DNA of 64,000 nt from Streptomyces sp. NL15-2K. GTDB lineage: Bacteria; Actinomycetota; Actinomycetes; Streptomycetales; Streptomycetaceae. Under the pieces are notes generated by a model. The model was not told where the DNA came from. It did not search any database and worked only from the letters and a program-made list of their open reading frames with translations. This document shows positions 35,479-38,895 of the stretch, in pieces (the first letter of the stretch is position 1; each line of letters begins with the position of its first letter). The stretch lies in contig NZ_CP130630.1 in the NCBI RefSeq assembly GCF_030551255.1, positions 8,555,001 to 8,619,000 on the forward strand. The letters are read 5' to 3'. A program made the position numbers and the translations under genes.

Positions 35479-35880
35479 CTACGACGTCACCGGAAGCCCG
35501 GCTGCCTTCCACGCCTGGAATCCGCCGACAAGATCGGTGGCCCGGCGCAGCCCCAGCCGATGCAGGGACTCGGCCGCCAGGCTGGAGGCGTAGCCCTCGT
35601 TGCAGATCACCACGACCCGCAGGCCGTGGCCGGTGGCCTCGGGGGCGCGGTGGCTGCCCCGCGGATCGAGGCGCCACTCGAGCTCGTTGCGCTCCACCAC
35701 GAGGGCGCCGGGGATCAGGCCGTCCCGCTCGCGCAGGGCCGCGTAGCGGATGTCCACCAGCAGCGCGTCCCCGGCCCGGACGGCGTCGTACGCATCCTGT
35801 GGCTCGATCCGCTCGTATCCCTCGCGGACCCGCTCCAGCAACTCGTCGATACCGACCGCTCGTTCGTCCAGGCCGCTCAT
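35479..35880 (-). CDS. Rhodanese-like domain protein
   Basis: A 133-residue single-domain rhodanese. The active-site loop reads VVVICNEGYASSLAA with the catalytic cysteine; the family elements DALLVDIR and DLVGGFQAWKAAGLPV are present. Such proteins move sulfane sulfur. It lies 47 bp downstream of cysteine dioxygenase on the same strand, so the pair probably forms a sulfur-metabolism operon under the cysteine leader. ATG 35880 is chosen; the domain begins soon after. Confidence 0.88.
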   Translation of the reverse strand: MSGLDERAVGIDELLERVREGYERIEPQDAYDAVRAGDALLVDIRYAALRERDGLIPGALVVERNELEWRLDPRGSHRAPEATGHGLRVVVICNEGYASSLAAESLHRLGLRRATDLVGGFQAWKAAGLPVTS

Positions 35881-35927
35881 CGCCGACCCTCCGTTTCTCC
35901 CGTTCCGGTCACTGTCTCGCGTCCCGC

Positions 35928-36467
35928 TCACTGCCAGTCCTCCGGGCGTTCCACCTGCTCCAGGTGCAGGATCTGACCGGTGCGGCTGTAGCGGCGGATT
36001 CGTGGCAGCGGCGGGTAGTAGGCGTGGACGGAGATCGCGTGCCGCTCGGGGGACTCGTTGAGGACCTCATGGACGTGGTGGCGGCCGAAGGCGCGGCCCT
36101 TTCCGGCCAGCAGCCGGCGCTCCCGGTCCACGCCCTCGGTCAGTTCCAGCGTCTTCCAGCCGTCGGTGGGCAGCCGTGCGGCGAGTGAGTTCTCCTTGAG
36201 CTCGCCGGAGGCGGTGAGGAAGGCGCCGACCGAATCGGCGTGGTCGTGCCAGCCGGTGCCGCTGCCGGGCGGCCAGCCGATCAGCCAGGCCTCGCTGCCG
36301 CCGGGCCCCTCCAGCCGTACCCAGGTACGGCCCTCCGGGTCGAGCGGGAGCGAGGCGATCAACTCGGTGTCGGCGGCCGTACGACGTACGAAGTCGAGCA
36401 GGTCCGCCTGCGTGGGGGCGGTGACTTCGGCAGATCCGCCGGGGGAGAGAAGGGGAGACACAGACAC
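35928..36467 (-). CDS. Cysteine dioxygenase (type I, cupin)
   Basis: A 179-residue cupin that oxidises cysteine to cysteine sulfinate with Fe(II) and O2. The three-histidine iron site is visible as H74-D-H76 in GTGWHDHADS and the later HHVHE (about 130-134). Flanking GAFLTASGELKE and VHAYYPPL fit the family. Starts are ambiguous because GTGTCT repeats three times (36473, 36467, 36461); GTG 36467 has AGGA 8 nt upstream and is preferred. A cysteine-rich leader peptide, promoter and operator lie 80-240 bp upstream, pointing to control by cysteine supply. The rhodanese gene follows. Confidence 0.9.
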   Translation of the reverse strand: MSVSPLLSPGGSAEVTAPTQADLLDFVRRTAADTELIASLPLDPEGRTWVRLEGPGGSEAWLIGWPPGSGTGWHDHADSVGAFLTASGELKENSLAARLPTDGWKTLELTEGVDRERRLLAGKGRAFGRHHVHEVLNESPERHAISVHAYYPPLPRIRRYSRTGQILHLEQVERPEDWQ

Positions 36468-36497
36468 AGACACCGTCCTGAAGAAGCGTTCGCGAGG

Positions 36498-36528
36498 AGC
36501 GCGCGGCAACGCGGGAGCGGCGCGCGCT
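36498..36528 (-). promoter_or_regulatory. Hairpin in the cysteine dioxygenase leader region
   Basis: AGCGCGCG (36498-36505) pairs with CGCGCGCT (36521-36528). It lies between the stop of the leader peptide and the dioxygenase start, where a translation-dependent attenuation structure would be expected. No U-run follows, so it could act on translation or as a Rho-type signal; this is inference. Confidence 0.5.
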
Positions 36529-36549
36529 TTGAGAAAGGGGGATGCGAAT

Positions 36550-36636
36550 TCAGCAGGACGGGCGACACACGCAGCCCGCGTAGCGGACGAGGTCCATGTG
36601 GACCCTCCGCCACAGGCGCACACAGGTGTCGGTCAT
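36550..36636 (-). CDS. Cysteine-rich leader peptide upstream of cysteine dioxygenase
   Basis: A 28-residue peptide whose second half reads MDLVRYAGCVCRPSC; the first half has another cysteine (MTDTC...) and the R-R-V-H segment. This matches the RxH(V/M)DLxR...C pattern of short 'putative leader peptides' found before sulfur-metabolism genes in Streptomyces. Three of the last seven residues are Cys, so ribosome stalling would report Cys-tRNA supply. There is no Shine-Dalgarno, but a -10 box ends 7 nt before the ATG, so the mRNA is predicted to be leaderless. The cysteine dioxygenase start is 83 nt beyond the stop. Confidence 0.8.
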   Translation of the reverse strand: MTDTCVRLWRRVHMDLVRYAGCVCRPSC

Positions 36637-36643
36637 GATCCGG

Positions 36644-36672
36644 AGTACACCACGACGGTGCGGACCGGTCAA
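36644..36672 (-). promoter_or_regulatory. Promoter of the leader peptide-cysteine dioxygenase operon
   Basis: On the minus strand, TTGACC (-35, 36667-36672) and TGTACT (-10, 36644-36649) are 17 bp apart. Transcription would start at or next to the leader ATG (36634-36636). The ideal spacing and the match to the leaderless start support it. Confidence 0.75.
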
Positions 36673-36708
36673 CTCACTGTCACTATGTGGACGCAGCGTG
36701 ACAGTGAG
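36673..36708. promoter_or_regulatory. Palindromic operator upstream of the cysteine dioxygenase promoter
   Basis: CTCACTGTCAC (36673-36683) and GTGACAGTGAG (36698-36708) form a perfect 11-bp inverted repeat with a 14-bp spacer, directly upstream of the -35 box. Arm centres are about 25 bp apart. This is the layout of a binding site for a dimeric or tetrameric regulator, most simply an activator; the protein is unknown. Confidence 0.7.
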
Positions 36709-36738: not shown

Positions 36739-38382
36739 TTATCGCGAACCGGCCCCCGCGCCCGCTTCCGCCTTGGCCGGCCCGCCCAGTGCCGCCTCGG
36801 CCGCCGTGTACAGGTCGGCCGGCCGTACCCCGGTCAGCGCCGTGACCAGGTGACCGTCGGGCCGTACGAGAAGGACGGTGTGGGGGGCGGCGCCCGGGTA
36901 CTCCTCGGCGACCAGCAGCTCGGCCGGGTGCGGCAGCGCGGTCACCGCCGCGGCCAGACGGGGCATGATCCCGGCGGTCACCCAGTGCTTGCGCTCCCAC
37001 ACGCCCGTGCCCGGCGCGATCAGTACGACGAGCAGCGCGCAGCGACCGAGGCGGTCCCGCAGCCGTACGAAGGAGCCGTCCTCCGCGGTGACCCGCACAT
37101 CGGTGACCTGCGCCCCGGGCGGAGTGTCGACGGGGGTCTCGCCTTCGAGGTGCGGGGGTGCGAGCGGCGATTTGGCGTACGCCCCCGGCGCACCGAGCGT
37201 GCCGCGCCCCAAGTGACCTTCCGTGAGGAGCGCGTCGTGGCCACGGGCCGAGCCGGGGACGTAGGCGCGCAGGCCTCCGCCGCCGCGCAGCAACGGCAGT
37301 GCCTGGTCGGCGGCGCGCAGGCGGGCGGCGACGACCGCGCGCCGCTCGGTCTGGTAGCTGTCGAGCAGCGCCTCGTGCGGCCCGTGGTGCCAGGCCAGCG
37401 CCAGCTTCCAGGCGAGGTTGTCGGCGTCCCGCAGCCCCTCGTCCAGCCCCTGTGTGCCGAGCGCCCCGAGCAGGTGTGCCGCGTCCCCGGCGAGGAACAC
37501 TCGGCCGGCGCGCCAGCGGCGGGCCACTCGGTGGTGGACCGTGTGCACGCCGGTGTCGAGGAGTTCGTACGGCGGTGTCGAGCCGCCGGTCCAGCCGGCC
37601 AGGGTCTCCCGGACGCGTCCCACCAGCAGCTCGGGCGTGACCAGGTCCTTGCCCGGGGGCAGCAGCCAGTCCAGTCGCCACATTCCGTCCGGCAGGGGGC
37701 GTCCGGTGATCTCGCCGGCCGACGGGCCGGAGGTCCGCCACGGCGGCATCCGGTGCAGCAACGCTTCACCGGGCCAGGGGAGTTCCGCGCGCAGTGTGGC
37801 CACGGCTTGTCGCTCCACCGCCGTACGGCCCGGGAAGCGGATGTCCTGGAGCTTGCGTACCGTCGAGCGGATGCCGTCGCAGCCGACCAGGTAACTGCCG
37901 CGCCACCAGGTGCCCTTGGGGCCGCGGGTGTGGGCCGTGACGCCTGAAGGTTCCTGCTCGATGGAGTCGAGGCGGCTGTCCACGGCGATCTTGACGAGGG
38001 GCTGGCCGGCGACGGCGGCGCGCAGGGCGCCGGTGAGCAGGTGCTGGGCGATGTGGAGCGGGGCGGGGCCGGCACTGAGGAGGTCCGTGTCGCCGTCGGC
38101 GGCGGTGTCGTCCGTGCCGCCGAACGTGACCTTGCGCATCACCTGCTTGCGCCGCATCGACCTCCATCCGGCCCAGTGGACGCCGGCCTCGGCGAGCGGC
38201 ACGCCGGTCAGCCGCTCCATCAGGGCAGTGGTGTCCTCGCGCAGCACCACCGTGCGCGCGAGACGCGGTTCGTCCTTGCCCGGTCCCTCGTCGAGGACGA
38301 CGGAGGGCACCTCCTGACGGGCCAGCGCCAGGGCGAGCGTGAGCCCGACGGGCCCCGCTCCGACGATGATCACCGGATCCAC
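36739..38382 (-). CDS. FAD-dependent monooxygenase (PheA/TfdB, aromatic hydroxylase type)
   Basis: A 547-residue class A flavoprotein. The FAD-binding GxGxxG is at the extreme N-terminus (VIIVGAGPVGLTLA). The second FAD motif DG appears in LVGCDGIRSTVR, and the GD motif in VFLAGDAAHLLGALGTQGLDE. A C-terminal thioredoxin-like region follows. Substrates of such enzymes are phenols, polyketide aromatics or antibiotics; none can be assigned. The GTG start (38382) is chosen because the Rossmann motif begins at residue 4. It is upstream of the cysteine dioxygenase operon on the same strand but is separated by that operon's own promoter. Confidence 0.87.
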   Translation of the reverse strand: MDPVIIVGAGPVGLTLALALARQEVPSVVLDEGPGKDEPRLARTVVLREDTTALMERLTGVPLAEAGVHWAGWRSMRRKQVMRKVTFGGTDDTAADGDTDLLSAGPAPLHIAQHLLTGALRAAVAGQPLVKIAVDSRLDSIEQEPSGVTAHTRGPKGTWWRGSYLVGCDGIRSTVRKLQDIRFPGRTAVERQAVATLRAELPWPGEALLHRMPPWRTSGPSAGEITGRPLPDGMWRLDWLLPPGKDLVTPELLVGRVRETLAGWTGGSTPPYELLDTGVHTVHHRVARRWRAGRVFLAGDAAHLLGALGTQGLDEGLRDADNLAWKLALAWHHGPHEALLDSYQTERRAVVAARLRAADQALPLLRGGGGLRAYVPGSARGHDALLTEGHLGRGTLGAPGAYAKSPLAPPHLEGETPVDTPPGAQVTDVRVTAEDGSFVRLRDRLGRCALLVVLIAPGTGVWERKHWVTAGIMPRLAAAVTALPHPAELLVAEEYPGAAPHTVLLVRPDGHLVTALTGVRPADLYTAAEAALGGPAKAEAGAGAGSR

Positions 38383-38895
38383 GGCGCGGCGCCCCCTGCC
38401 CGCAGCGGTGTCCCGAGGGACGTGAGTGAACAGGAAGGTGGAGCAGGGTGCACGATCACGGAACGTATGCAACCTATTGCCGGTGCTTGCGTCAAGTGAC
38501 GGTGACCTCGGCATGGCTGAGCGTTGTTCAGCTGGTGACGGCTCGCCCATGGCCGAGGACGCCACGGCTGGTGTGCCGGCCCTCCATCCGGCCCTCCATC
38601 CGGTCCTCTGTCCGGTCCTCCATCCGGTCCTCTGTCCGGTCCTCCATTCGGTCCTTTGTCCGGTCCTCCTGGGCGGCCCGGGACGGGCCCGGGCGGCCTG
38701 CCTGAGCGGTGGGCCTCAGACCGGCAGAGCGGCAGAGCGGCAGAGCGGCGACGCCGGGCGCGCCGCCGCGAAGGGGGTCACATCTACGACACCTACGAAT
38801 CGAAGGCAACGGTGCCCTGCCCTCGCCGCCGCGACAGGCAGGACACCGCGCCCGGTCATACCGGGAAGGCCGGCCGGAAGTTCACCGGCCGCCGG
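38383..38895. other. Repeat-containing gap between the monooxygenase and gluD
   Basis: About 510 bp without a supported gene. It contains a 12-bp tandem repeat (38576-38671) and a shorter 8-bp repeat (CGGCAGAG, three copies from about 38722). A polar frame crossing the repeats is repetitive on both strands and has no ribosome site. Confidence 0.6.
38576..38671. repeat. 12-bp tandem repeat array
   Basis: Eight exact-length 12-bp units of the form CCGG(T/C)CCTC(C/T)(A/G)T. Units 3-6 alternate CCGGTCCTCTGT and CCGGTCCTCCAT, giving a 24-bp higher-order period. This is a minisatellite likely to vary in copy number between strains. Confidence 0.9.

Follow-up and report, generated by a model that had tools for sequence, protein, structure and literature searches.

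A predicted cysteine-linked leader-peptide attenuator ahead of a cysteine dioxygenase-type gene in Streptomyces

The tryptophanase leader TnaC precedes an amino-acid-degrading enzyme and responds to excess. Cysteine-linked leader peptides are already known from mycobacteria; in work of Canestrari from 2020, a ribosome stalled on a mycobacterial Cys sORF is said to free a sequestered ribosome-binding site. Leaderless cysteine-rich sORFs precede the mycobacterial genes cysA2, nirA, and Rv0485 (PMC4633059), and uORFC-8-2 precedes cysS in Rhodobacterales (PMC8632094). The metL leader of Streptomyces lividans, reported to be methionine-dependent, has a Cys-rich end, CMCRRMCAF (PMC8079986, Table 4). 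It may be a cysteine leader, and metNIQ is listed as co-induced with cysteine genes in PMC4991794.

The locus described here lies in a 64,000-nucleotide stretch of Streptomyces sp. NL15-2K DNA (contig NZ_CP130630.1), which was analyzed as a whole and is referred to as the window. All of its elements are on the minus strand (Table 1). The locus resembles those of the mycobacterial sORFs in its terminal Cys codons and the sulfur genes downstream, and promoter geometry predicts a leaderless arrangement here as well; it differs from them in lacking a Cys run and in its target, a dioxygenase. Like uORFC-8-2, it has a short upstream ORF with Cys codons within a stem, whereas tandem Cys codons that are mostly UGC, an intrinsic terminator, and occurrence in alpha-proteobacteria are features of uORFC-8-2 itself. 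The placement of a leader peptide before an amino-acid-degrading enzyme recalls TnaC, but sister leaders and expression data indicate a response to shortage here. The locus carries a conserved cysteine-linked leader of a known family before an unusual target, with a predicted sign opposite to that proposed in an earlier reading of the same sequence (hereafter, the original prediction).

Table 1 Features of the leader locus and its neighboring genes (window coordinates).
Feature	Position	Strand	Remark
FAD monooxygenase	36739-38505	-	tandem, upstream of leader
Inverted repeat, upstream arm CTCACTGTCAC	36698..36708	-	perfect 11-bp repeat
Inverted repeat, downstream arm GTGACAGTGAG	36673..36683	-	adjoins -35 box
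-35 box TTGACC	36667..36672	-	read from sequence
-10 box TGTACT	36644..36649	-	17-nt spacer from -35
Leader ORF MTDTCVRLWRRVHMDLVRYAGCVCRPSC + TGA	36550..36636	-	28 codons; TGA 36552-36550
Leader-internal hairpin TGGCGGAGGGTCC/GGACCTCGTCCGCTA	36580..36612	-	codons 9-19
Cys22 codon TGC	36571..36573	-	Cys in 206/207
Cys24 codon TGT	36565..36567	-	11 residues after His13; 207/207
Cys28 codon TGC	36553..36555	-	Cys in 189/207; else F, R, H, others
Anti-Shine-Dalgarno strand CCGTCCTG	36554..36561	-	leader codons 26-28, CCG TCC TG
Inner stem TTCGC (36548-36544) / GCGAA (36493-36489)	36489..36548	-	encloses pyrimidine-rich loop and GC-rich hairpin
Dioxygenase Shine-Dalgarno region CAGGACGG	36473..36480	-	AGGACGG in 199/207
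Cysteine dioxygenase (PF05995)	35928..36467	-	likely start GTG 36467; alternatives 36473, 36461
Rhodanese-domain protein	35479..35931	-	overlaps dioxygenase stop

The gene behind the leader, originally predicted to be a cysteine dioxygenase, matched PF05995 (cysteine dioxygenase type I) with 168.5 bits (gathering score, 23), and its best solved chains are labeled cysteine dioxygenase (E 1.4e-11). By these matches it encodes a cysteine-dioxygenase-type cupin, with L-cysteine as the putative substrate. An assignment to an "Arg type" of cysteine dioxygenase was argued by eye only and is not relied on. In-frame GTG starts with a usable Shine-Dalgarno sequence are found at 36467 and 36461. The rhodanese gene follows on the same strand at 106 of the 108 loci with enough DNA. 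Where the available DNA exceeds 2 kb, the FAD monooxygenase gene upstream of the leader is kept, in tandem, at 109 of 110 loci.

The leader peptide matched the NCBIfam model NF042934 (cis_reg_atten, "putative leader peptide") with 37.1 bits against a curated cut-off of 27. It carries R-x-H-x-D-L-x-R and a Cys 11 residues after the His (H+11), a combination that was derived in this survey and is not a curated definition, and it stands directly upstream of a sulfur-metabolism operon (dioxygenase and rhodanese), as do most of its sister leaders. By this match, the leader belongs with the actinobacterial leader peptides of the R-x-H-x-D-L family, in agreement with the cysteine-rich RxHVDL type that had been recognized. 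It shares with NF042934 members the motif, the Cys at +11, and a score above the cut-off, and is set apart by its Cys residues at 22, 24, and 28 and by the thiol dioxygenase that it precedes. The score for the mycobacterial Ms5788A family (NF042933) lay below the curated cut-off (17.9 vs 45 bits). Three matches only were obtained from Rfam, each below its gathering score, and the single result of a plasmid search was a short Streptomyces match.

Conservation was examined at 210 loci, consisting of the window, the best 80 of 515 confirmed relatives (titled Streptomyces throughout except for one "Actinobacteria bacterium"), and 129 loci of the same genus. Among 150 genomes of the genus, that of the window aside, 18 had only distant paralogs, one had no match, and one (G130, at a contig end) was left out. 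The leader was present upstream of the dioxygenase at 207 of the 210 loci; of the other three, L181 is on a truncated contig, the match in L209 starts at residue 39, and L210 is a homolog with 50% identity. As DNA, the 207 leaders comprise 144 different sequences, and as peptides 78, with duplicates between the sets kept. In 10 genomes from other genera of the order, the leader lies ahead of 6/6 close orthologs (59–70% identical), two of which (L257 and L258) were missed by the script motif and read by eye. At the other loci in these 10 genomes, with homologs of up to about 43% identity, the script detected no family leader except at L259, where a leader-like ORF, MNPGTFLVCRLHVDLRRQASDMCAC, precedes a distant dioxygenase homolog by approximately 380 nt.

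The start codon of the leader is GTG at 146 loci and ATG at 61, and the stop codon is TGA at all 207. Distinct codon variants in the leader frame were 25 synonymous and 26 nonsynonymous, against 25% synonymous expected (p = 2e-4, phylogeny ignored); the other two frames gave no synonymous excess (16:34 and 12:39). Changes in length, seen at 11 of the 207 loci, always comprised whole codons, though the parser demanded an open frame. With the codon usage of 28 window ORFs as the reference, the invariant TGT of Cys24 compares with a TGT usage of 19%, Arg11 is coded AGG in 96% (vs 5% usage), with AGG kept at 192 of the 207 loci, Val12 is GTC at all 207, and Ser27 is TCC in 98%. From these codon patterns, the leader looks like a translated frame with an RNA constraint superimposed. 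The 28-codon frame of the original prediction and the conservation of its Cys codons in a Streptomyces alignment, which had been proposed as a check, were thus both borne out.

The promoter sequence TTGACC-N17-TGTACT, from which a start at the leader ATG had been predicted, is also present; TTGACC was found in register at 162 and TGTACT at 145 of the 207 leader loci of the genus. Seven bases separate TGTACT, which ends at 36644, from the leader ATG at 36636. This geometry predicts a promoter of the leaderless type, with the leader ATG coinciding with the expected transcription start. The perfect 11-bp inverted repeat beside the −35 box is likewise present, and its full motif has a single site in the genome. 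Its conservation was confirmed in part: perfect arms of at least 8 bp abutting the −35 box occur at 41/207 loci (0/207 in shuffled controls), but the repeat as written is patchily conserved, being confined to a minority of loci. Between loci the arms vary yet stay complementary. GTGAC-n6-TTGA, at 111/207 loci, is commoner than the perfect repeat; a block GTCCRCAT is held in a fixed place relative to the −35 box at 89/207 loci, and GTCAC occurs 20–36 nt upstream of this box at 71/207.

A DNA operator at the inverted repeat is plausible from the sequence, and we rate it slightly above the reading of the repeat as a terminator of the upstream FAD monooxygenase gene. Because the end of that gene lies a short way upstream at almost every locus, the terminator has to be taken seriously, though we hold it to be somewhat short of probable. 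The repeat begins about 30 bp past the monooxygenase stop codon, and complementarity is kept where the arms change, both of which suit a terminator. On the other hand, the repeat is not followed by a T-run, and GTGAC-n6-TTGA and GTCCRCAT keep their places relative to the −35 box despite a widely varying distance to the monooxygenase gene. As to what an operator might bind, GTGAC-n6-TTGAC is similar, with one mismatch, to the published GlnR-type GTnAC-n6-GTnAC (PMC3087709), and GlnR may be considered a candidate. In S. venezuelae, nitrogen starvation raises expression of the dioxygenase homolog more than 5-fold, and this induction depends on GlnR (PMC3087709); therefore, some transcriptional layer exists. 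The name SCO5772, given there to a putative cysteine dioxygenase, occurs once in the main text, in the expression table, and so not in the ChIP table (PMC3087709). Of the DNA-binding regulator in the original prediction, the transcriptional layer is upheld by the S. venezuelae homolog, while the operator is a plausible candidate. Control at the promoter, perhaps tied to nitrogen, would be a second and less certain layer.

A hairpin had been predicted between the leader and the dioxygenase gene; it is present and GC-rich, and the inner hairpin has a mean z of −2.37 in mononucleotide shuffles, with z below −1 at 173 of 203 loci. The hairpin at 36528–36498 is followed by CCTCGCGAACGCTTCTTC, and no T-run, as in a classical attenuator, was read from the sequence before the dioxygenase gene. 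A long-range complementarity that is absent from the original prediction connects 36561–36554 with 36480–36473. In the minimum free energy (MFE) fold of the leader and spacer, which was matched by 0/200 shuffles (z −3.2), the leader tail is paired with the Shine-Dalgarno sequence of the dioxygenase gene. With G-U pairs allowed, CCGTCCTG and CAGGACGG formed all eight pairs at 160 of the 207 loci, seven at 30, six at 15, and five at 2. At least 6/8 pairs are thereby formed at 205/207 loci, and 16 of 4140 random 8-mers formed 8/8. The Shine-Dalgarno sequence was located by an AGGACGG-like motif (207/207, exact in 199), a search that favors complementarity; the site picked in L048 is inside the gene and probably wrong.

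Ensemble folding of the free RNA gave a mean unpaired probability of 0.05 for the Shine-Dalgarno sequence and a leader-tail pairing above 0.5 at 185/207 loci. A ribosome was modeled by masking an assumed footprint of −18 to +15. Placing Cys24 in the A site brought tail pairing to nearly zero and raised the unpaired probability to 0.28, the values for Cys22, Cys24, Cys28, or the stop codon being 0.24–0.31; when Cys22 was placed there, pairing of the tail persisted at 26/207 loci. Accessibility remained modest under the mask, the Shine-Dalgarno sequence being more than half open at 1 (free), 3 (Cys22), 6 (Cys24), 12 (Cys28), and 12 (stop codon) of the 207 loci. For the window sequence, opening it cost 11.0 kcal/mol in the free RNA and 5.7 (Cys24) or 6.1 kcal/mol (stop codon) under the mask. 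Because in this model the site opens as readily under a ribosome at the stop codon as under one at Cys24, the fold alone is no proof of Cys dependence. Any ribosome bound to the tail helps to open the site, and therefore only a prolonged pause on the tail should count; such a pause would be expected at the Cys codons.

RNAalifold, applied to a 72-sequence alignment with a gappy middle, found the 5' hairpin and did not report the Shine-Dalgarno stem. Covariation is uninformative for this stem because both strands are nearly invariant, and own strand pairs had no folding advantage over exchanged pairs (−21.7 vs −21.3). Sequestration of the ribosome-binding site by a leader strand, comparable to that in the mycobacterial attenuators, is accordingly a prediction from folding and complementarity. 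In the leader-internal hairpin, 1 of 19 pairs showed two-sided change in the same alignment. This modeled hairpin may explain part of the codon fixation, including that of Arg11 AGG.

In the genome of the window, NF042934 gave 10 matches over the cut-off, including the dioxygenase leader. Sulfur genes were found in seven of the nine other operons behind leaders that pass the cut-off: ThiS with cysteine synthase, a sulfite/nitrite-reductase-type gene, an SsuA-family protein, an SsuC-like permease, the dimethylsulfone monooxygenase SfnG, a rhodanese followed by a DUF1416 protein, and a DmoA-type monooxygenase (just under its own cut-off). A peptide-type binding protein and a PAP2-domain protein make up the remaining two. 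Weaker leader matches precede a ROK-family regulator (L221; 26.0 bits, cut-off 27) and a flavin reductase (L222). A 2014 title by Lyubetsky reportedly ties PF00480 (ROK) proteins to sulfur metabolism.

Pairing between the leader tail and the Shine-Dalgarno sequence was considered as a rule for all leaders and rejected, as among 10 leaders folded from this genome it is dominant only at the dioxygenase (0.85 of Shine-Dalgarno bases); L212 shows partial pairing (0.37), and the other leaders at most 0.12. At the nine other leader operons of this folding set, the Shine-Dalgarno sequence is not mainly paired with the tail, and masking hardly alters its opening energy. In L222, the Shine-Dalgarno sequence pairs with the 5' part of the leader (0.97) and not with the tail, which in this model is perhaps another output. 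In L222 and most other sister leaders, opening became no easier when a ribosome was masked at the key Cys. The L212 leader, ahead of the DmoA-type monooxygenase gene, ends in TTCCTGA, which is complementary to TCAGGAA at the Shine-Dalgarno sequence of that gene.

The most surprising result is a constant UGU codon. At the position 11 residues beyond the H/A of R-[HA]-x-D-L-x-R, the Cys codon is TGT in 97/97 scripted leaders from 57 genomes and 24 families. The count was 40/40 in a first set (29 class-survey loci and 11 from the genome of the window) and 57/57 among those parsed of 60 more, which were chosen by hand; the three unparsed leaders also have TGT at the key Cys, as read by eye from the match frames. 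Other Cys codons in the 97 leaders are TGC in 96 and TGT in 21 cases (96/117 TGC). The sample consists of the better-scoring matches among those listed for 98 genomes, 68 of which had a match over the cut-off. Since the survey model is protein-based, the codons were unselected; the counts are uncorrected for relatedness. A first, stricter parse read 9 of the 29 loci, all with TGT, and a looser one favored Cys at +11; the reported count comes from a parse without this preference. The surveyed loci are L270-L298 and L306-L365, with L211-L222, L299, and L300 from the genome of the window. The other motif codons vary, and the bases flanking the key TGT are not fixed. The peptide sequence cannot account for UGU over UGC, and the constant codon therefore points to UGU decoding itself. 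No mention of an invariant UGU was found in the largely open-access literature that was searched.

Taken together, we regard the interval as probably a ribosome-operated translational attenuator that turns the dioxygenase-rhodanese operon on when Cys-tRNA is scarce. From the promoter geometry, RNA polymerase would start at the leader ATG, and ribosomes would therefore translate the leader from its 5' end. In the free RNA, CCG TCC TG would pair with CAGGACGG, aided by TTCGC:GCGAA and the inner hairpin, and the operon is predicted to be off. At a shortage of Cys-tRNA, the ribosome would wait at Cys22 or Cys24, the latter always UGU, and its footprint would hide the anti-Shine-Dalgarno strand, so that the Shine-Dalgarno sequence opens and the operon is translated. 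The motif R-x-H-x-D-L-x-R, at a fixed distance before the Cys, probably strengthens the stall from the exit tunnel. The operon would thus share its cysteine-limitation response with the operons for cysteine and sulfur acquisition behind sister leaders.

Because a ribosome at a Cys codon masks the strand that sequesters the Shine-Dalgarno sequence, stalling should activate, as in biosynthetic attenuators, and induction is therefore expected under cysteine shortage. The oddity is that a cysteine-destroying enzyme is predicted to be induced when cysteine is short. The original prediction had proposed the reverse of biosynthetic logic, with high cysteine turning degradation on. In S. coelicolor, SCO5772 was up 8.0-fold after H2O2 in RNA-seq, in a list with ssuABC, cysNDC, cysH, cysI, cysA, cysM, and metNIQ, plus several sulfur-unrelated genes (PMC4991794). 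That induction was a response to H2O2 stress at the mRNA level and depended on the hbpS-senS-senR genes (PMC4991794). S. violaceoruber (L071) has the dioxygenase leader; the leaders themselves were read in the window genome, not in S. coelicolor. From its annotation and synteny, we take SCO5772 to be the probable ortholog of the window dioxygenase. With those limits, the operons of the leader type move together with the biosynthetic sign, and the RNA-seq agrees in sign. Reverse logic is thus the less likely option. Of the Cys-tRNA-sensitive translation proposed originally, the coding signature of the leader and the suitable placement of its Cys codons stand, and the direction of control is not supported. 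If a presumed cysteine degrader follows biosynthetic genes in sign, the role of the dioxygenase in Streptomyces comes into question.

Rho-dependent polarity is a different account of the leader, in which ribosome release at TGA exposes a pyrimidine-rich stretch that loads Rho, transcription ends before the dioxygenase gene, and a stall or structure prevents this. Such a stretch was seen by eye past TGA in the 72-sequence alignment, and the published change in SCO5772 is at the mRNA level (PMC4991794); for mycobacterial cys leaders a role of Rho has been proposed, as a rather weak prediction according to its authors (PMC1262725). We consider it unlikely for this locus, as it leaves the near-invariant complementarity between leader tail and Shine-Dalgarno sequence unexplained, and a stall upstream of the pyrimidine-rich stretch would leave that stretch uncovered. 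Reverse logic in mechanistic form would be TnaC-like: the nascent peptide and free cysteine or thiol arrest the ribosome at excess, the Shine-Dalgarno sequence opens, and surplus cysteine is removed. The dioxygenase is catabolic by family, the peptide is very strongly conserved, and Shine-Dalgarno accessibility rises with a ribosome masked at any of the positions between Cys22 and the stop codon inclusive, as this account would have it. It is nevertheless rather improbable, given that sister leaders ahead of biosynthetic genes share the motif and the UGU codon, that SCO5772 is listed as co-induced with biosynthetic genes (PMC4991794), and that the distinction between UGU and UGC is a matter of decoding and not of the peptide. 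Least credible, and in our view very improbable, is a structured cis element in which the internal hairpin and the Shine-Dalgarno stem act and the Cys codons are incidental; it would fit the strong synonymous constraint (Arg11 AGG, Val12 GTC, Ser27 TCC) and the consensus 5' hairpin in 72 sequences, but the synonymous excess is confined to the leader frame, Cys24 is invariant with its motif at the family level, and length changes come in whole codons, with the above-mentioned reservation on the parser.

Attenuation by a ribosome waiting at the Cys codons, the reading we prefer, can be extended to the family in a more tentative form, which we hold possible without calling it probable. The leader family would be a codon-specific arrest device, in which R-[HA]-x-D-L-x-R in the exit tunnel confers hypersensitivity to Cys-tRNA at the UGU at +11 and UGC is no substitute. 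One module would then serve many outputs, among them Shine-Dalgarno release before a thiol dioxygenase, induced by cysteine shortage. If this is true, the dioxygenase, a thiol-oxidizing enzyme, serves sulfur salvage and not disposal. Changing UGU to the synonymous UGC keeps the peptide and offers a sharp and cheap test of a single codon as a sensor; if the swap abolishes regulation, codon identity is the signal receiver.

A minor feature within the leader is GGAGG shortly before an ATG (Met14) at 36608-36595 on the minus strand, a possible internal start. Residue 14 is Met at 185 of the 207 loci and otherwise Leu or Val.
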